30,364 bases of DNA from positions 1 to 30,364 of IMG/VR virus record IMGVR_UViG_3300021962_000019. One strand, written 5' to 3'. How positions within the stretch are numbered: the first letter of the stretch is position 1; every line of letters begins with the position of its first letter. The DNA is from a virus. Position numbers and translations under genes: made by a program. Positions 13,349-22,979 of the stretch are shown here, in pieces. Under the pieces are notes generated by a model. That model made no database searches. It saw only the letters and a program-made list of their open reading frames with translations, and was not told where the DNA came from.

Positions 13349-14011
13349 ATGCCAGCCAATCCAACCATCATCTTCGACATCGAGACCGGGCCGCTGCCTG
13401 CCAGCGAGCTGGTCATCCCGCCATTCAACCCTGCCGACGTGAAGCTCGGCAACATCAAGGATCCCGACAAGATCGCCGCCAAGATCCAGGCGGCCGAGGA
13501 AAGCCACGCGGCCGACTACATCCGGAACGCCGCCCTGGATGCCATCAGCGGGCAGGTGCTCTGCATCGGCTACCGCATCGAGCACGACCAGCCCGCGGTG
13601 CTGTGCTCGGACGCCGACGGCGAGGCCGCCATGCTCCGGCAATGGTGGGCCGCACTCAACGACTTCCAACGCCAACCAAAGCTGGTCGGCTTCAACATCA
13701 AGGCCTTCGACCTGCCGTTCCTGATCCGCCGAAGCTGGCGCCATCGGCTGACGCCGCCCTATTGGCTGCGCCAAGGACGCTATTGGAACGACCTGATCGT
13801 CGACCTGCGTGAGGTGTGGCAGCTCGGTGACTCGAGAGCCCACGGCAGCCTAGCCTCGATCTGCCGGCACCTGAGCCTCGGTGAAAAGGCGGGCAACGGT
13901 GCCGACTTCTCGAATCTATGGCAGACCGACCGCGAGGCCGCCATCAACTACTGCCTGCGCGACGTCCAACTCACCCAGCAGGTCGCCGACATCCTCATCC
14001 CGTCCTACTGA
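13349..14011 (+). CDS. DEDDy-type 3'-5' exonuclease (DnaQ/PolB-exonuclease-like)
   Basis: This 220-residue protein carries all motifs of the DEDD superfamily: ExoI FDIET (Asp10, Glu12), ExoII VGFNIKAFDLPFL (Asp121) and ExoIII YCLRD (Tyr201, Asp205), the latter giving the DEDDy subtype. These residues bind two metal ions and remove nucleotides from 3' ends. It has no polymerase domain, so it may serve proofreading in trans, end trimming or recombination. The start at 13349 was chosen over an in-frame ATG at 13292 because the upstream part is a repeated leader. The stop overlaps the helicase ATG (TGATG). Confidence 0.8.
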   Translation: MPANPTIIFDIETGPLPASELVIPPFNPADVKLGNIKDPDKIAAKIQAAEESHAADYIRNAALDAISGQVLCIGYRIEHDQPAVLCSDADGEAAMLRQWWAALNDFQRQPKLVGFNIKAFDLPFLIRRSWRHRLTPPYWLRQGRYWNDLIVDLREVWQLGDSRAHGSLASICRHLSLGEKAGNGADFSNLWQTDREAAINYCLRDVQLTQQVADILIPSY

Positions 14012-15282
14012 TGACCACAACCACCTGCCCGGTAATGGACGACATCGACAGCTTCAACCCGACCCCGGAGGCCCGGTTCCTCGCCTGGGCGACCACGGGC
14101 GGGAACGTCTTCCTCACCGGGCAGGCCGGCACCGGCAAGTCCACCCTGCTCGGCCGGTTCCTCGACTGGGCCCGGCTGAAGGGCATCACCGTGGCCGTCA
14201 CCGCCCCCACCGGGATCGCCGCCCTCAACGTCGGAGGGACCACCGTGCACCGCTGGTGCGGCATGCAGCTCGGGCCACAGGACACCGAGACGTTCGAGGC
14301 CGCAGCCGCCCGACTGGAAAGCCACGGCGCCTACTACGGGGCGGTCAACCGTGTCCAGGAGACCTCGGTGCTGGTCATCGACGAGATCTCGATGATGGCC
14401 GGGCGGCAGCTCGACTTCCTCGACTTCTGGCTCAAGCGCATCAGAGAAGACGACGCACCGTTCGGCGGGCTCCAGGTGATCTTCCTCGGCGACTTCCTGC
14501 AGCTACCACCCGTCCGGACCGACGCCTCCAAACCCTACGACTGGGCCTTCCGCAGCGAGGCCTGGAAACAGGCCGATTTCAAGACCATCCGCCTCGAGAC
14601 CGTCCGGCGTCAGAACGACCTGGCCTTCGTCCAGGCCTTGAGCGGGTTCCGCATCGGCAAAATGCGGAAGATCGACGCCGACATCCTGCGCTCCCGGGTC
14701 CAATGGTTCCCGAAGGCCGAGATCACCCACCTGCTGACCCACAACGCCCAGGTGGACAAGTGGAACACCTACCGCCTCGAGAACGTGCCCGGCGAGGTCC
14801 TGACCTTCGAGGCCCGCACCAAAGGCGTCGAGCAGGCGGTCGACTTCGCCACCAAGAACATGTCCACCCCCCGGGTGCTCCAGATCAAGGTGGGCGCCGC
14901 CGTCATGTTCACGGCCAACGACGCCGAGCAGGGCTTCGCCAATGGTCAGATCGGCACCATCACCCGGGTCAGCGGCACCGTCATCCATGTCCACAGCCGC
15001 GGCAGCACCATTTCCTTGGAGCCACGAAAATGGTTCTTTGACAACCTGGGCGTGACCGTCTGGCAATACCCGCTCCGCCTGGCCTACGCCATGACCATCC
15101 ACCGCGCCCAAGGCCTGACCCTCGACGCCGCCTACATCGACATCCGGGCCGCCCGGGAGCCCGGGCAAGGCTACGTCGCCCTGAGCCGCGTCCGCAGCCT
15201 GCCGGGCCTGCACCTCAAGGAATGGCCGAAGGGCTGGTTCATCTCAGAGGAGGCCCTCGCGTTTGAAAGGGGAGAACGATGA
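14011..15282 (+). CDS. Pif1-like SF1B DNA helicase
   Basis: This 423-residue protein is a 5'-3' helicase of the Pif1/RecD group. Motif I is FLTGQAGTGKST (about residues 32-43), motif Ia is VTAPTGIAAL, motif II is VLVIDEISMM, motif III is FLGDFLQLPPV, and the C-terminal motifs are YAMTIHRAQGLTLD and GQGYVALSRVRS. Pif1 enzymes unwind DNA, remove proteins and resolve G-quadruplexes; in phages they assist replication and recombination. ATG 14011 overlaps the exonuclease stop. The stop at 15280-15282 overlaps ATG 15279 of the second-frame protein, and the methyltransferase ATG lies 2 bases downstream. Confidence 0.85.
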   Translation: MTTTTCPVMDDIDSFNPTPEARFLAWATTGGNVFLTGQAGTGKSTLLGRFLDWARLKGITVAVTAPTGIAALNVGGTTVHRWCGMQLGPQDTETFEAAAARLESHGAYYGAVNRVQETSVLVIDEISMMAGRQLDFLDFWLKRIREDDAPFGGLQVIFLGDFLQLPPVRTDASKPYDWAFRSEAWKQADFKTIRLETVRRQNDLAFVQALSGFRIGKMRKIDADILRSRVQWFPKAEITHLLTHNAQVDKWNTYRLENVPGEVLTFEARTKGVEQAVDFATKNMSTPRVLQIKVGAAVMFTANDAEQGFANGQIGTITRVSGTVIHVHSRGSTISLEPRKWFFDNLGVTVWQYPLRLAYAMTIHRAQGLTLDAAYIDIRAAREPGQGYVALSRVRSLPGLHLKEWPKGWFISEEALAFERGER

Positions 15283-16211
15283 CATGGATACTACCAAAAC
15301 AACTACACACATTGGCCTGTGCGCTGGATACGGCGGCATTGAGCTTGGACTCAAACGAGTCATCCCGAATCTGCGCTCAGTCGCTCTTTGTGAGATCGAA
15401 GCCTTCGCCATTGCGAACCTGGTCAGCAAAATGGAAGCGGGACTCATGGACCCGGCACCTATCTGGCCGGATCTTAAGACCTTCCCTTGGGCAGCGTTTC
15501 GCGACCGAGTGGACATACTTACTGGCGGTTACCCGTGCCAACCATTCAGCGCAGCCGGGCAGCGCCGAGGCAAAGAAGATCCGAGGCATCTATGGCCCTA
15601 CATTGCAGATGGCATTCGACTTCTCCGACCCAAGCTCTGCTTCTTTGAAAACGTCGAAGGACATATCTCGCTGGGGTTGTCCGACGTCATCGAAGACCTG
15701 GCAGGAATGGGTTACAGAACAACGTGGGGCATATTCTCAGCGGCTGAAGTCGGCGCGCCTCATCAGCGGAAGCGGGTGTTCATCCTGGCCCACAAGCTCG
15801 GCACGGGACTGGAAGGGTTGCTACACGACCCTGCAACGCAAGGACGGCAAGATGCGGGGCGACTTGTTGCCGGATGCGGTGAACATCGAGGAGATGCATG
15901 GCCCTCCCGTCCCGGCGAGCAGCAGTACGGATGGGAGCCGCCCAGAGTCGTGGGCGACACCAATCATGGGCGACTCGCATCTAGCCTCAACGCCGGAAGC
16001 TGCACAGAAGCGGATCGAGGAGGGCAAGGTGACGTTGAGCAGGCAGAATCCGGGCAAACTCAACCCCCGCTGGGTGGAGACGCTGATGGGGCTGCCGGTG
16101 GGATGGACTATGCCGAGCTGTGTGTCTCCTGTGACAATCGCACCGATGAGCTGCGCCTCCTCGGAAACGGAGTTGTCCCAGCAACCGCTGAGCGGGCCTT
16201 CCGGGTGCTGA
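15279..16211 (+). CDS. Second-frame protein with LNPRWVETLMG motif, overlapping the cytosine methyltransferase
   Basis: This 310-residue frame is open across almost the whole methyltransferase gene and starts at ATG 15279, which overlaps the helicase stop (ATGA) as authentic genes do here. Its C-terminal half shows WPTSSARDWKG, SWATPIMGDSH and LNPRWVETLMGLPVGWT, a pattern I know from phage proteins found with or on cytosine methyltransferases (WPTP..DWKG...LNPxWVExLMGxPxGWT). The N-terminal 90 residues look like a shadow of the other frame. It may be a true dual-coded protein or a motif conserved because both frames are constrained. Function unknown, possibly an accessory to the methyltransferase. 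Confidence 0.5.
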   Translation: MTWILPKQLHTLACALDTAALSLDSNESSRICAQSLFVRSKPSPLRTWSAKWKRDSWTRHLSGRILRPSLGQRFATEWTYLLAVTRANHSAQPGSAEAKKIRGIYGPTLQMAFDFSDPSSASLKTSKDISRWGCPTSSKTWQEWVTEQRGAYSQRLKSARLISGSGCSSWPTSSARDWKGCYTTLQRKDGKMRGDLLPDAVNIEEMHGPPVPASSSTDGSRPESWATPIMGDSHLASTPEAAQKRIEEGKVTLSRQNPGKLNPRWVETLMGLPVGWTMPSCVSPVTIAPMSCASSETELSQQPLSGPSGC

Positions 16212-16228
16212 TCAAAGAGCTTTTATGA
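15284..16228 (+). CDS. DNA (cytosine-5) methyltransferase
   Basis: This 314-residue enzyme transfers a methyl group from S-adenosylmethionine to C5 of cytosine. Motif I is GLCAGYGGIELGL, motif IV TGGYPCQPFSAAGQ with catalytic Cys85, motif VI FFENVEGH, motif VIII APHQRKRVFILAH and motif X LLGNGVVPATAERAF. The target-recognition part (about residues 170-280) is Gly/Asp-rich and of unusual composition, where the second frame holds its conserved motif. ATG 15284 is chosen over TTG 15263, which lies inside the helicase gene. The stop overlaps the PrimPol ATG. No restriction endonuclease is adjacent, so it is likely an orphan that protects phage DNA. Confidence 0.88.
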   Translation: MDTTKTTTHIGLCAGYGGIELGLKRVIPNLRSVALCEIEAFAIANLVSKMEAGLMDPAPIWPDLKTFPWAAFRDRVDILTGGYPCQPFSAAGQRRGKEDPRHLWPYIADGIRLLRPKLCFFENVEGHISLGLSDVIEDLAGMGYRTTWGIFSAAEVGAPHQRKRVFILAHKLGTGLEGLLHDPATQGRQDAGRLVAGCGEHRGDAWPSRPGEQQYGWEPPRVVGDTNHGRLASSLNAGSCTEADRGGQGDVEQAESGQTQPPLGGDADGAAGGMDYAELCVSCDNRTDELRLLGNGVVPATAERAFRVLIKELL

Positions 16229-18213
16229 TCTCCCTTCACGACCTCGAGCAATGGCTCGGCACCCCGCTCTTCATGGTGCCATGCCGCCCCGGAACCAAGA
16301 TGCCGGTGGTCAAATACACCCAGGAGACCCTGCAGGGCACCGCACGGCCCGCCTACCAAGCCCTGCTGGAGCAATCGAACATCGCCGTGCGACTGGGCGA
16401 ACACTCGGGCGGGCTGTGCGCCATCGACTTCGACGACGACGACAGCCTCGAGGAGTTCCTGGCGGTCAACCCGCACCTCCGGACTTCCGCGCGGTGGAAA
16501 GGCCGCCGCGGCGCCCAGATCGGCGTTCGCCTGACCGGCACCTACCCGGGCCCATGCAGCGCCCGCCACCCGACCGAGACCGTCGAGGTCAACGGCCGGC
16601 AGCTCGGGCGCCCCCTGTACGAATGGCGCAGCACCGGCAACCTCTCGACCGTCCGCGGCACCCACCCATCCGGCTGCAGCTACCAGGTGCTCGTCGCCAA
16701 CCCGCCGGTCACCATCGCCTTCTCGCAGATCCGCTGGCCGGAGGGCTGGCCGGTTCCTGGCGAGGACGACAGCGTGGCCCGCCTCCTCGAGCAGTTCGGC
16801 GAGGCCTGGACCTTCAACAAGGCCGGCAACGGCACCCTGCAGCCCCCATTCTTCGCCGCCTACCTCGCGCACCGCGAGCGGGTGCTGTTCGACACCGTCA
16901 CCGGCCAGTTCTACTTCTACCTGCCCGACCGCGGCATCTGGCAGTCGATGTCCAGGGAGGAGGTCGGGCAACGTGTCCTGGCCATGGCCCGGAAGATCAT
17001 CCTGGACCACGCCGCGGCCCAGCAGGCGCCCCACCTCCGCACCCTCCTGCCGAAGCTAACCGCGCAGTTCAGCAACCAGGTGATCGAGCTGGCCAGCCAC
17101 CTCCAGGTCGAGCGGGCGCCATTTGGCCGCCCCGACTCGGTGGTGCACGCCGAGAACGTCATGGTCGACCTCCGGGTCAGCCCCTACGGCATGCACAGCT
17201 TCTCGCCGGAATGGTTCAGCCGGAACCAGACCCCCATCCGGTACGTCGAGGGCGCCACCAGCCCGATGTGGCAGGCCTTCCTCGACCATTGCCTGCCGGA
17301 CCAGGACGACCAACGCCTCCTCCAGCATTGGGGCGGCCTCGCCCTCCTCCAACGCAACCGCCCGCAGGTGATCTTGCTCCTGACCGGCACCGGAGGCGGC
17401 GGAAAGTCCACCGTGGCCGGCGTCGTCCGGCGCCTGGTGGGCGACGAGAACTGCACCGAGCTCCGCACCCAACACCTCGGCGGGCGCTTCGAGGCCGGCC
17501 TGTTCCACGACAAGACCCTGCTGATCGGCTCCGACGTGGCACCGGACTTCCTGTCCTGCGACTCTAGCGCCTTCCTCAAGGCCATGACCGGCGGCGACCG
17601 GATCATCGCCGAGTTCAAGAACAAGAACGGCGTGAAGACTCTGGTGGGCGACTGGAACGTCATCGTCACAGCAAATAGCCGGCTGAAGGTAAACGTGCAG
17701 GGAGACCTAGGCGCTTGGGCACGCCGGCTTCTGTTGTTGGATTTCTCACAGCCGAAACCATCGACGGTCATTCCAAATTATCACGATGTGATGATAGACA
17801 AAGAAGGGCCAGGCATCCTCAACTGGTTCTTGGCCGGCGCTAAATCACTTCGCCTTGTAATAGAATCGGGACGGTCTTTTCCTATTACTTCAAAGCAACG
17901 ACACCGGGTCGATAACCTGCTTTCAGAATCCGACAGCGTCCGGTACTTTATCACCAACCACGTCCAGGCCTCTAGCATGGCCGCCGATTGCATCACGCGG
18001 TCCGAGTTGTTCGAGGCCTACCTCCAGCTGTGCGGTGCGAAGGAATGGTCGCCGGAGCCCAACAACCGCTTCCAGCGCCGGGCTGCGGAGCTGATGCTCG
18101 AGCTGCACCAGGCCACCGCCACCGAGCACCTGCACCGGGACAACCGCGACGATTCAGGCGACCGCGGGTGGATCCGGGTCGTTTTCACCGGCCTCCATGA
18201 CCTGTCAAGATGA
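16225..18213 (+). CDS. PrimPol-like primase fused to SF3 helicase
   Basis: This 662-residue replication protein has an N-terminal PrimPol-like domain (about 1-180: CAIDFDDDDSLEEFL with the acidic pair, and EWRSTGNLSTVRGTHPSG resembling its end) and a D5/P4-type SF3 helicase. The Walker A is LLLTGTGGGGKST (about residues 382-394), followed by LLIGSDVAP as Walker B region and VIVTANSRLKV as sensor, then a C-terminal winged-helix-like part. Such proteins prime and unwind at the phage origin. The usual SxH motif of PrimPol is not evident; RRGAQIGVRL stands in its place. GC falls between about 17680 and 17960. ATG 16225 overlaps the preceding stop. Confidence 0.8.
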   Translation: MISLHDLEQWLGTPLFMVPCRPGTKMPVVKYTQETLQGTARPAYQALLEQSNIAVRLGEHSGGLCAIDFDDDDSLEEFLAVNPHLRTSARWKGRRGAQIGVRLTGTYPGPCSARHPTETVEVNGRQLGRPLYEWRSTGNLSTVRGTHPSGCSYQVLVANPPVTIAFSQIRWPEGWPVPGEDDSVARLLEQFGEAWTFNKAGNGTLQPPFFAAYLAHRERVLFDTVTGQFYFYLPDRGIWQSMSREEVGQRVLAMARKIILDHAAAQQAPHLRTLLPKLTAQFSNQVIELASHLQVERAPFGRPDSVVHAENVMVDLRVSPYGMHSFSPEWFSRNQTPIRYVEGATSPMWQAFLDHCLPDQDDQRLLQHWGGLALLQRNRPQVILLLTGTGGGGKSTVAGVVRRLVGDENCTELRTQHLGGRFEAGLFHDKTLLIGSDVAPDFLSCDSSAFLKAMTGGDRIIAEFKNKNGVKTLVGDWNVIVTANSRLKVNVQGDLGAWARRLLLLDFSQPKPSTVIPNYHDVMIDKEGPGILNWFLAGAKSLRLVIESGRSFPITSKQRHRVDNLLSESDSVRYFITNHVQASSMAADCITRSELFEAYLQLCGAKEWSPEPNNRFQRRAAELMLELHQATATEHLHRDNRDDSGDRGWIRVVFTGLHDLSR

Positions 18214-19343: not shown

Positions 19344-19966
19344 CCCAACGAGCCTACGCGGAACACTCGGGCCTGACCACCGGCTACGTCACGATGCTGG
19401 TCAAGAAGGGCATGCCGATGGACAGCCCGGAGGTGGCGGACGCCTGGCGGGCGCAGAACATCCGGGCCAAGAACATCCGCCGCGTGACTGACCCGGAGCC
19501 TGAGGAAGGCCCCGCCCCGGAGCAGGAAGGGCCCTACCGGCCCGCGGAGGCCTCGAACCCCATCGACACCGCCACCGCGGCCACCGACTCGCCAGAGGGC
19601 GCCTACGAGCGGCAGCGGCAGATCGAGCGGGCGGCCTACGATCTGGCGGTGCAGGCGCTTCGGCAGCGTCGGGCTGATGCCGGGCGCCTGGTGGCGATCC
19701 ATGCCGCGGCGGCCAAGAATCTGACCAGCGCCCGGGACGAGGTGACCAACCAGGCCGAGCGTGAGCGCCGGCTGGTCTCCGGCGACTGGGTGCGCCGTGT
19801 CATGCAGGAGCACGACGGGGCGGTGGCCTCCCTGCTCAAGGCCATGCCAAAGCAGCTTTCCGGACGCATCGCACCGCATGACCCGGAGCACGCCGAGCGG
19901 GAGCTGACCCGCTGGGTGCAGGAGGTGGCGCTGAAGACCCTTCATCAGACCGACCCATGGAAATGA
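19340..19966 (+). CDS. Terminase small subunit (putative)
   Basis: This 208-residue protein begins with a winged-helix-like DNA-binding segment (TQRAYAEHSGLTTGYVTMLV, residues 2-21, and KKGMPMDSPEVADAW), as in Nu1-type small terminases that recognise the packaging site. A Pro/Glu-rich linker (about 50-90) leads to a helical part (RQRQIERAAYDLAVQALRQR) for oligomerisation and binding of the large subunit. It is not directly followed by the large terminase: a methyltransferase gene lies between them. ATG 19340 overlaps the preceding stop. GC is high. Confidence 0.7.
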   Translation: MTQRAYAEHSGLTTGYVTMLVKKGMPMDSPEVADAWRAQNIRAKNIRRVTDPEPEEGPAPEQEGPYRPAEASNPIDTATAATDSPEGAYERQRQIERAAYDLAVQALRQRRADAGRLVAIHAAAAKNLTSARDEVTNQAERERRLVSGDWVRRVMQEHDGAVASLLKAMPKQLSGRIAPHDPEHAERELTRWVQEVALKTLHQTDPWK

Positions 19967-21129
19967 CCTACCAGCTCCACCTAGGCGATTGCCTCGAGGT
20001 GCTCGCCGGCATGCCCGACAACTCGGTCGACAGCATCGTCACCGACCCGCCCTACGGCCTGTCGTTCATGGGCAAGCGCTGGGATTACGATGTGCCCAGC
20101 GTGGCCATCTGGGAGCAATGCCTCCGGGTGCTGAAACCCGGCGGTCATCTGCTGGCCTTCGCCGGCACCAGGACGCAGCACCGCATGGCGGTCAGGATCG
20201 AGGACGCCGGCTTCGAGATCCGGGACATGATCGCCTGGGTCTATGGCTCCGGCTTCCCGAAGTCGCTCGATGTCTCGAAGGCCATCGACAAGGCCGCGGG
20301 TGCTGAGCGGGAGAAGGTGCGCGTTGCCGCAATCGACCTGAAAAACCCTCCAAACCTTGTTGGCGGGGTCAACAACGGAAGCGACAGACCGTGGCGAAAA
20401 AAAGCGATGGAAGTCGGCTATTACGAGAAAAACAGCAATGAACCCGCCACCGACGCCGCCCGGCAATGGTCCGGATGGGGCACCGCCCTAAAGCCTGCCT
20501 TGGAGCCGATCACCATGGCCCGGAAGCCGCTGATCGGAACGGTGGCCGAGAACGTCCTGACGCACGGCACCGGGGCAATCAATGTGGATGGGTGCAGGGT
20601 GGGGGATGAGGTGCGGCTCAATTCAAGCGCCGGAAACAAAGACTTGGAAAACAGGAAAACGGTCACACCGATCTCCAGCCACAAAGAGACAGCCGGACGA
20701 GAATGCATCGGCCGATGGCCTGCTAACCTGATCCATGACGGCAGCAACGAGGCCTGCCTGGCGCTCAAGTCCGGCGCCCGATTCTTCTACAGCGCCAAGA
20801 CCGGCAAGGATGACCGGAATGAAGGCTGTGAATCTTTTGAAGAAAAACCTGCCGGAGGAATGCAGGGTCGAAATGACGGCAGCCTTGGCACTATTACTAT
20901 GTCCAAAAACCATCATCCGACCGTGAAGCCTACCACCCTGATGGCCTACCTCTGCCGGCTGGTGACGCCACCCGGAGGCACCGTGCTCGATCCGTTCATG
21001 GGCTCCGGTTCGACCGGCAAGGCGGCCACGGTCAACGGCTTCCGGTTCATCGGGATCGAACGGGATCCGGCCTATCACAAGATCGCCGAAGCCCGGATCT
21101 CCAACCAACACCAAGGCCGCCTTTTATGA
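19957..21129 (+). CDS. DNA amino-methyltransferase (N6-adenine or N4-cytosine)
   Basis: This 390-residue enzyme methylates an exocyclic amino group. Motif IV, DPPYG (residues 30-34), comes first and the AdoMet-binding motif I, LDPFMGSGSTGKA (about residues 344-356), is near the C-terminus. This permuted order defines the beta group. HHPTVKPTTLMAYLCRL is the conserved segment before motif I. The middle (about 115-250) is a variable region of lower GC that would include the target-recognition domain. It overlaps the small terminase end by 10 bases and its stop overlaps the large terminase ATG. No endonuclease neighbour is seen. Confidence 0.85.
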   Translation: MEMTYQLHLGDCLEVLAGMPDNSVDSIVTDPPYGLSFMGKRWDYDVPSVAIWEQCLRVLKPGGHLLAFAGTRTQHRMAVRIEDAGFEIRDMIAWVYGSGFPKSLDVSKAIDKAAGAEREKVRVAAIDLKNPPNLVGGVNNGSDRPWRKKAMEVGYYEKNSNEPATDAARQWSGWGTALKPALEPITMARKPLIGTVAENVLTHGTGAINVDGCRVGDEVRLNSSAGNKDLENRKTVTPISSHKETAGRECIGRWPANLIHDGSNEACLALKSGARFFYSAKTGKDDRNEGCESFEEKPAGGMQGRNDGSLGTITMSKNHHPTVKPTTLMAYLCRLVTPPGGTVLDPFMGSGSTGKAATVNGFRFIGIERDPAYHKIAEARISNQHQGRLL

Positions 21130-22979
21130 TCCTGACCGACCTGCAGCGCTCTTTGCTCGACTACCGCCGCAACCTCTACCGGCCGACCCCGCAGCAGACG
21201 GTGGTGGAATGGTCCGAGGCCAACCTCAAGCTGACCGCGCGGCAGACCGAGCACCCGGGGCCGTTCTCGACCTCGGTCCGGCCCTACACCCGGGAGCCGA
21301 TGGAGGACTGGAAAAACCCGTCGGTCTCCGAGGTGACCTTGTGCTGGGGCTCGCAGACCTCGAAGACCACGACCCTGATGGCCGGCCTGGCCTGGCTGAT
21401 CGCCAACGAGCCGAGCCCGGCCTTGTGGCTAATGCCGAGCGAGAATCTCGCCCGATCCTTCTCGAAGTCCCGATGGATGCCGATGCTCGAGGACAGCCCG
21501 GCAATGCTCGAGTGTTTCCCGGCCGAGGCCGACAAAATCACCAACCTGGAGCAGAACTTCACCCGGTCGACCCTGACCTTTGTCGGGTCCAACAGCCCGG
21601 CCAACCTGGCCAGTCGCCCGGTGCGGGTGCTGATCGCCGACGAGGTCGACAAATTCGCCGAGGCAACGGCCAAGGAAGCCGACGCCCTGGATCTGGCCGA
21701 GCAGCGTCTCAAGTCGTTCTCCAGCTCAAAGGCCTTCATGACCTCGACACCCACCGTCGTCGAGGGCCGGATCTGGCAGCGCTTCCTCCGCGGCGACCAG
21801 CGCCGTTTTTACATCCCGTGCCCCCATTGCCGGGAGCCGATCAAGTTGCTGTGGCCGCAGGTGACCTGGGAAGACGCCAGGACCGAGGACGGCAAGCCCG
21901 ACCTGGCCAAGATCCGGGCCTCGGCGCACTACGTCTGCCAGCTTTGCCAGGGGCGCATCACCGACGCGCACAAGGTGGCCGCCCTGCGCCACGGGCAATG
22001 GATCCCGGAGAACACCGGGGCGCTGCCTGGCGTCCGGTCTTACCACCTGTCCAGTCTCTACAGCCCCGACCGCAAGTGCACCTGGGGGCATCTGGCGGTC
22101 TCCTTCCTCGAGGCCAAGGCCTCCATGGCCGGCCTGCAGGGCTTCATCAACGGAACCTTGGCGGAGCCCTGGGAGCAGCAGGACGTCCAGCAGGACCGAA
22201 CCGAGACCGCCCAGATCGTCCGGGTGGACGGCGGGCGCCGTTACCTGACCGCGGACGTGCAGGCGGTGGCGCCGTTCCTCTGGTGGGTTTGCCGGGAATG
22301 GAAAGATGGGCACAGCACCCTGGTGGCCGCCGGACATGCCGACGACTTCGCCGCCCTTCGGCGGGTGCAGGTGAAGCTCGAGGTGCACGACATGGACGTC
22401 GGGATCGACTCCGGGTTCAACACCCAGACGGTCTACGATGCCTGCGCTGGCTATTCGACGATCACCTCCAACCCGGTGACCTTCCCGTGCGGGCTGCGCT
22501 ACCCGCCGGAGGGCGGGCTCCGGAAGCCCATGGTCATCGGCTGGATGCCGCTCAAGGGCCGGGAGGTGGGCGCCCGGTTCACGACAAAGTCCGGGGCGGT
22601 GCACCCGTTCGGCATCTCGACCTCCTCCTCGATGCGGACCGATGTGGTGCAGCCGCTCCTGGTCTTCGACACCGAGCACCTCCGGGAGATGCTTTCCCGG
22701 CTTCGGAAGGGCGACATCGACCGGGAGTGGGGCATCTCGGAGCCGCCGGCCGAATGGCAGGTCGACGGCGCCTACTTGGCCGAGCCCGACATTTACTGGC
22801 GGCATCTCGACTCCCATCTGCTGCGGCCTCAGGCCAACCGCGCGGGCCGGATCAAGCACGTCTGGACCAAGCGGAACCAGAAGTGGCCGGACCACTTGCA
22901 CGACTGCGAAATCATGCAGCTCGCCATGGTGATGCTGTGGAATGACCTGATCCCGCAGGAATCCACAACAAGCGCTTGA
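21126..22979 (+). CDS. terL: Terminase large subunit, GpA family
   Basis: This 617-residue packaging motor matches the lambda GpA family. The N-terminal ATPase has a Walker A-like GSQTSKTT (residues 75-82) and Walker B VRVLIADEVDKF (Asp172, Glu173). A zinc-binding insert follows (CPHCREP and CQLCQG). The C-terminal nuclease shows acids in VGIDSGFNTQTVYDAC and HLHDCEIMQLAMVML. It cuts concatemers and drives DNA into the prohead. ATG 21126 overlaps the methyltransferase stop. Family members are 600-680 residues long, so this is full length. Confidence 0.88.
   Translation: MILTDLQRSLLDYRRNLYRPTPQQTVVEWSEANLKLTARQTEHPGPFSTSVRPYTREPMEDWKNPSVSEVTLCWGSQTSKTTTLMAGLAWLIANEPSPALWLMPSENLARSFSKSRWMPMLEDSPAMLECFPAEADKITNLEQNFTRSTLTFVGSNSPANLASRPVRVLIADEVDKFAEATAKEADALDLAEQRLKSFSSSKAFMTSTPTVVEGRIWQRFLRGDQRRFYIPCPHCREPIKLLWPQVTWEDARTEDGKPDLAKIRASAHYVCQLCQGRITDAHKVAALRHGQWIPENTGALPGVRSYHLSSLYSPDRKCTWGHLAVSFLEAKASMAGLQGFINGTLAEPWEQQDVQQDRTETAQIVRVDGGRRYLTADVQAVAPFLWWVCREWKDGHSTLVAAGHADDFAALRRVQVKLEVHDMDVGIDSGFNTQTVYDACAGYSTITSNPVTFPCGLRYPPEGGLRKPMVIGWMPLKGREVGARFTTKSGAVHPFGISTSSSMRTDVVQPLLVFDTEHLREMLSRLRKGDIDREWGISEPPAEWQVDGAYLAEPDIYWRHLDSHLLRPQANRAGRIKHVWTKRNQKWPDHLHDCEIMQLAMVMLWNDLIPQESTTSA

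Follow-up and report, generated by a model that had tools for sequence, protein, structure and literature searches.

Split C5-methyltransferases and a phage locus with two frames

The specific DNA contacts of a C5-cytosine methyltransferase are made by its small domain, which comprises the target-recognition domain (TRD) and motif IX and lies between motifs VIII and X. In M.EcoHK31I, the beta gene overlaps the alpha gene in an alternative reading frame. Few textbook examples exist of a long same-strand overlap that encodes two parts of the same enzyme. The closest described systems are M.AquI and M.EcoHK31I, split C5-methyltransferases that work as two chains (PMC3404938). The larger subunit of M.EcoHK31I (YGGCCR) has motifs I-VIII and X and is assigned the predicted TRD, and the smaller subunit has motif IX (PMC3404938). 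The primary paper on this enzyme, by its title as listed there, states that two proteins are required (PMC3404938). In M.AquI (CYCGRG), the small subunit carries motif X as well as motif IX (PMC3404938).

The window analysed here, meaning the whole stretch of DNA, comprises positions 1-30,364 of the IMG/VR virus record IMGVR_UViG_3300021962_000019 (30,364 nucleotides; GC 63%). Two ORFs overlap in different frames, and both are open exactly where a first-pass annotation of the window had placed them. The locus is as follows.

13918-15282 (+), Dda-like helicase, 5′ neighbour (phrog_325, E 8e-63)
15267-15274 (+), Shine-Dalgarno-like AAGGGGAG, 4 nt 5′ of the beta ATG (15279) and 9 nt 5′ of the alpha ATG (15284)
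15279-16211 (+), beta, 310 aa, proposed target-recognition and motif IX subunit; +1 frame relative to alpha, open in homologous loci, under purifying selection
15284-16228 (+), alpha, C5-cytosine methyltransferase catalytic subunit, 314 aa; with motifs I-VIII, then an unstructured linker and motif X
15284-16211 (+), dual-coding stretch of 928 nt, the overlap of both ORFs
16225-18213 (+), primase, 3′ neighbour (phrog_1156, E 2e-48)

The helicase ends in TGA (15280-15282), which shares two bases with the beta ATG (15279-15281) in the sequence ATGA, as had been noticed before, and the primase start codon overlaps the alpha stop codon in the same way. With the +1 offset, the synonymous third position of an alpha codon is position 2 of a beta codon.

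Judging from the sequences, I estimate a probability of roughly 85% that the locus encodes one two-polypeptide C5-methyltransferase of the M.EcoHK31I kind, with a catalytic alpha and a beta carrying the TRD and motif IX in overlapping frames. It resembles M.EcoHK31I in having two polypeptides, alpha with motifs I-VIII and X and beta with motif IX; the likeness is one of motif layout. As in M.EcoHK31I, the two genes overlap in different frames, and in the window both are kept by selection. There are also differences. The window locus is phage-encoded and lies between a helicase and a primase, its beta matches alpha in length and begins 5′ of it, and this beta has variable W-x-T-P modules that are read here as the recognition domain, whereas the predicted TRD of M.EcoHK31I is on the larger subunit. 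New with respect to M.EcoHK31I are thus a beta that reaches back past the alpha start, the constraint on its first ~60 codons, and the 1-8 W-x-T-P modules.

Division of the motifs between alpha and beta

The motifs of alpha are located as follows.

15317-15349 (+), motif I, LCAGYGGIELG, SAM binding; mostly invariant in the alignment
15524-15550 (+), motif IV, GGYPCQPFS, with the catalytic cysteine; PC invariant in the alignment
15644-15661 (+), motif VI, FENVEG, from the alignment
15752-15781 (+), motif VIII, GAPHQRKRVF, from the alignment
15830-16162 (+), alpha residues 183-293, pLDDT <50, at the DNA position of the recognition domain of a single-chain methyltransferase; the beta frame has the TRD modules and motif IX there
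16163-16201 (+), motif X, GNGVVPATAERAF; GNGVVP invariant in the alignment

Alpha has motifs I, IV (PC), VI (ENV), and VIII, with invariant columns in the alignment, and PF00145 matches only residues 10-175 (E 6e-32). In an AlphaFold (AF2) model built from 52 aligned sequences, residues 1-182 have a pLDDT of ~90 and the motif X helix ~93, while the 111 residues from 183 to 293 stay below 50 with no confident structure. The model can be aligned with 190 of the 327 residues of M.HhaI (Z 18.5, rmsd 3.2), suggesting an HhaI-like large domain. As modelled, alpha would have no working recognition domain, and the motif X helix packs back on the large domain. Members of the C5-methyltransferase family combine motifs I-VIII, the TRD, and motif IX in a single chain; alpha does not.

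The corresponding features of beta are these.

15279-15458 (+), residues 1-60, an N-terminal extension on the same DNA as the SAM-binding part of alpha; amino-acid constraint
15783-15818 (+), W-x-T module 1, SWPTSSARDWKG, from the translation and module counts
15948-15977 (+), W-x-T-P module 2, SWATPIMGDS, from the translation and alignment
16059-16106 (+), motif IX, LNPRWVETLMGLPVGW, the most conserved part of beta

The sequences by which the second frame had been singled out, WPTSSARDWKG and LNPRWVETLMGLPVGWT, are present at beta residues 170-180 and 261-277. The first-pass annotation had ascribed every C5 motif to the methyltransferase frame; motifs I, IV, VI, VIII, and X are there, but motif IX is absent from it and was found in the other frame. 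Scored on the LNP-type motif IX of this family, motif IX occurs in 0 of 97 alphas and in 89 of 96 betas.

Motif X (GN[GAS][VQ]xP) is in 93 of 97 alphas and 0 of 96 betas. Like M.AquI, the locus divides the enzyme after motif VIII, ahead of the part with motif IX; unlike M.AquI, it has motif X on alpha and not with motif IX on beta. In Streptomyces phage Vash, motifs I-VIII are in gp32, and the modules and motifs IX and X are in gp33, the gene in the +1 frame. This order is AquI-like but in overlapping frames, and it was also found in Brevibacillus (L240) and Alicyclobacillus (L317).

Is the second frame a gene?

A 308-codon open run in the +1 frame appeared in 0.03% of shuffles of the synonymous codons of alpha (P 0.0003), where the longest +1 run was 136 codons on average. 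An open frame alone is weak evidence here, since the GC content of the window is 63% and its terminase, primase, and helicase genes likewise have long open +2 frames. It is conceivable on these grounds that the second frame is a by-product of GC-rich codon bias and methyltransferase conservation with no translated product. However, besides the shuffle test in the window, +1 stops over 97 alphas number 165 against 650 expected from synonymous shuffles, a 4-fold deficit, while +2 stops show none (1669 against 1617 expected). Mock frames in the helicase and primase genes have little or no stop deficit comparable with that of the +1 frame of alpha. When beta was the query, nearly all of the 80 viral loci retrieved had it open from end to end. 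Among further distinct loci fetched with alpha alone, the +1 frame is open to near its end in 26 of 26, with 51 +1 stops, all of them terminal, against 425 +2 stops. Frequent +1 stops in homologous loci, which would speak against a second gene, were thus looked for in these 97 and 26 loci and not found.

As a separate observation, the terminase large subunit gene (21126-22979, +) has a +2 frame that is open for 605 codons (21209-22945, +), a run reached in 0.1% of synonymous shuffles. This is probably a codon-bias effect, as in the +2 frames of other genes.

Purifying selection on beta

The dN/dS of beta is given as NN/NS, computed by counting substitutions in two frames with an OLGenie-type method written for this analysis. 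It was 0.47 [0.42-0.55] over 47 independent pairs. The mock +1 frames gave 0.83 for the helicase (2 independent pairs) and 1.09 for the primase (6 independent pairs). The ratio is 0.23 [0.15-0.33] for the stretch with motif IX. By region, it is 0.16 for codons 1-40, 0.32 for codons 21-60, 0.44-0.60 for codons 161-260, and 0.13 for codons 261-300, and the regional values were similar with 100 pairs.

Fourfold sites tell the same in alpha. Their divergence from the window is 0.21-0.35 in alpha, against 0.46-0.56 in the helicase and 0.52-0.61 in the primase of the same loci, and alpha-synonymous divergence is 0.14-0.17 over beta residues 1-60. In bacterial relatives, a within-gene control is possible because beta starts inside alpha there; alpha-synonymous divergence is 1.91 on the 5′ side of the beta ORF versus 0.53 inside it.

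The amino-acid sequence of beta is under purifying selection. The strong evidence for beta is this selection together with its conservation across loci, not its openness. The codon-bias artefact is rejected as contradicted by the selection tests, and I consider it extremely unlikely: the alpha-synonymous constraint begins where beta begins, the mock frames in flanking genes show no such stop deficit or constraint, and the frame is kept open in relatives across many bacterial and phage genomes. Dual coding is established at the level of sequence. The earlier proposal of more than 900 dual-coding bases is borne out at the level of conservation and selection by the 928 shared nt, the stop deficit, and the dN/dS of 0.47, and selection in both frames supports its further suggestion that the target-recognition region evolves under two constraints.

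Between the constrained ends, beta codons 61-140 (15459-15698) stay open despite amino-acid constraint that is near neutral in the lineage of the window (NN/NS about 0.8-1.07). Here alpha may impose a passive linker that connects the two ends. Residues 1-60 are strongly constrained, and most bacterial betas lack this N-terminal extension.

Homology of beta to the missing part of alpha

Profile searches with beta gave no Pfam or NCBIfam match, and a PDB sequence search gave no credible match. Modelled by itself with AF2, beta reached a pLDDT of only 52, with no usable recognition-domain fold. Residues 80-277 of beta match positions 37-279 of the 329-position profile phrog_1008 ("DNA methyltransferase", E 4.8e-19), whose C-terminus is weakly matched by motif X of alpha (E 0.002).

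What this part of beta may be was suggested by single-frame relatives in Pelosinus and mycobacteriophages, in which a W-x-T-P...LNPxWVExLMGxPxGW segment lies between motifs VIII and X. Pelosinus L298 is a complete single-chain methyltransferase with W-x-T-P modules, LNPDWVECLMGFPIGWT, and motif X. It matches the window beta over 130 positions (E 3e-10), the beta of Paenibacillus phage Shelly at 8e-25, and a Brevibacillus beta at 1e-48. In the Mycobacterium phages Rita (L164) and prophiGD91-2 (L168) and related contigs, motifs I-VIII, PTPxxxD modules, RLAPAFSEWMMGWPAGWV, and then RIIGNGVVPQQA follow in one frame, and fused loci of this type have 5-11 stops in the +1 frame. With hhalign, the motif IX stretch of the mycobacteriophage fused set was aligned to diverse betas at 96% probability and to the beta group of the window itself at 79%. 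Homology between beta and the fused methyltransferases is strong at motif IX and patchy over the variable modules. The single-chain enzymes of Pelosinus L298, Rita, and prophiGD91-2 thus share the catalytic motifs, the W-x-T-P or L-P-T-P modules, and the motif IX variant with the window locus, but have everything in one frame. The single-chain references consist of Pelosinus L298 and the mycobacteriophage set only. L277, L287, and L316 had been scored as same-frame but were rejected as full fusions; in them the alpha frame passes into that of beta, with motif X left in another frame.

The C-terminal half of beta appears to correspond to the TRD and motif IX segment between motifs VIII and X of a single-chain enzyme. 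Since this half is homologous to the VIII-X segment and alpha has no motif IX, beta would be the TRD and motif IX chain, and most likely the DNA-recognition half of the enzyme. Betas of viral loci have 1-8 W-x-T-P modules, and those with more modules are longer. Multispecific phage methyltransferases have stacked recognition cassettes, and by analogy the W-x-T-P modules may be such cassettes.

The single-frame versions (L298, L164, L168, L169, and others) indicate that a fused chain is workable. Could the split loci make one long polypeptide too, by starting in alpha and shifting by programmed ribosomal frameshifting (+1) into the TRD-IX frame, with no separate beta initiation? I regard this as very unlikely. 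A beta ATG is conserved just 5′ of alpha (2, 5, 8, or 11 nt 5′ of its ATG or GTG) in 90 of 97 loci, and beta is constrained from its first codons, well before any shift site near motif VIII. Moreover, two shifts would be needed because motif X of the window type stays in the alpha frame.

In the fused methyltransferases of Rita (L164) and prophiGD91-2 (L168), part of the +1 frame over motifs IV-VIII is still beta-like; it reads SWKM...FSETWPPSGMTRSG in Rita. It looks as if the fused mycobacteriophage enzyme came from a split ancestor, or the reverse; the order could be either.

A proposed two-chain enzyme

In the reading preferred here, that of a two-polypeptide methyltransferase, alpha would fold as the catalytic large domain with motifs I-VIII plus the motif X helix, and beta would bring the target-recognition modules (W-x-T-P-x-A-x-D) and motif IX. 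Translation of beta would probably occur by coupling at the helicase stop codon, and the single Shine-Dalgarno sequence at 15267-15274 together with helicase termination may load both alpha and beta. The two chains would then bind each other to form one active enzyme, as in M.EcoHK31I, which probably modifies the phage DNA against host restriction. One point against this reading is that the long constrained N-terminus of beta is not accounted for by a recognition subunit alone.

If the reading is true, a set of "hypothetical" phage proteins with WPTP...LNPxWVEWLMGxPxGW would be explained, and methyltransferase specificity predicted from the annotated alpha alone would have been read in the wrong frame. 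The locus would also offer a natural test of co-evolution between two halves of one protein, where each indel affects both.

A second DNA methyltransferase gene is present in the window (19957-21129, +; phrog_67, E 5e-80), and thus the phage has at least two modification genes.

Distribution in phages and bacteria

Is beta ever found apart from a methyltransferase? The constraint on its first ~60 residues, the lack of a Pfam or NCBIfam match, and an AF2 model with no methyltransferase-like domain would suit an accessory protein in its own right, such as a regulator or a counter-defence protein, that is overprinted on the methyltransferase and not a part of the enzyme. The first-pass annotation had similarly linked the second product to an independent phage protein family. 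A scan of bacterial genomes with the beta motif alone gave 354 loci, and among the best 80 of them 0 have beta without alpha. All 80 viral loci seeded with beta also have alpha. Homologues of the LNPRWVETLMG protein outside methyltransferase genes were therefore 0 of 80 in the bacterial set (best 80 of 354) and 0 of 80 in the viral set; every classifiable relative sits on a C5-methyltransferase gene, and an independent beta family is rejected. The explanation suggested here is that beta looks like the missing half (TRD and motif IX) of the same methyltransferase. The C-terminal half of beta is homologous to the in-chain TRD and motif IX of single-frame relatives, and alpha lacks exactly that part. 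An accessory protein is thus unlikely, and the two-polypeptide enzyme remains the preferred reading.

Of the best 80 of the 354 bacterial loci, 73 have the two genes in +1 overlap (70 with beta nested inside alpha, 3 where alpha is short), 4 have both in one frame (one clear fusion), and 3 were scored as +2. The last three, L284, L288, and L312, look like local frame breaks or a mis-split match and were set aside. From organism names, I take the bacterial loci to belong to Bacillota, Pseudomonadota, Bacteroidota, Chlorobiota, Chloroflexota, Verrucomicrobiota, Planctomycetota, Nitrospirota, Calditrichota, Synergistota, and others. Many of these loci are metagenome-assembled and may be prophages, and the host phylum is to be read cautiously.

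In isolate phages of Acinetobacter, Escherichia, Lacticaseibacillus, Paenibacillus, Microbacterium, and Klebsiella, a beta lies in the +1 frame of an annotated methyltransferase, and likewise in phages C75C1 and C72C1; these betas are mostly unannotated. The reverse was found in Synechococcus phage Ssp-JY39 (L162), where an annotated hypothetical protein (469-1584) is beta and the catalytic alpha on the same bases is unannotated. The overlap recurs in hundreds of genomes but is annotated only in part, as alpha only or, in Ssp-JY39, as beta only. Paenibacillus phage Shelly is among the few records with both annotated (SHELLY_55 and SHELLY_56, with beta listed as "g55 internal gene"). Its beta is nested in the +1 frame of the methyltransferase as in the window, but starts 184 nt inside alpha and has no N-terminal extension like that of the window. 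The distance from the start of the alpha open frame to that of the beta open frame within it is some 130-380 nt in Shelly and most bacterial loci. A search with the full-length beta gave one match each among plasmids and phage isolates, because the long-beta group is mostly environmental. In the literature searched, with most subscription journals outside its scope, no description of a phage-wide overlapping arrangement was found.

A broader view may be considered, to which I would give an even chance. The locus would represent a widespread and probably old enzyme class, whose catalytic and specificity halves are obligately encoded on the same DNA in +1 frames in phages and some ten or more bacterial phyla. 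The recognition cassettes inserted in beta (1-8 modules) would oblige alpha to carry a linker that is disordered and variable. In one phage group, beta would have grown backwards over the whole catalytic domain, gaining a selected N-terminal domain by overprinting.

The chromosome of a Roseovarius metagenome-assembled genome (OX638333.1) has five alpha/beta matches (L262-L266) with the same score and layout, which are either several near-identical prophages or an assembly effect.
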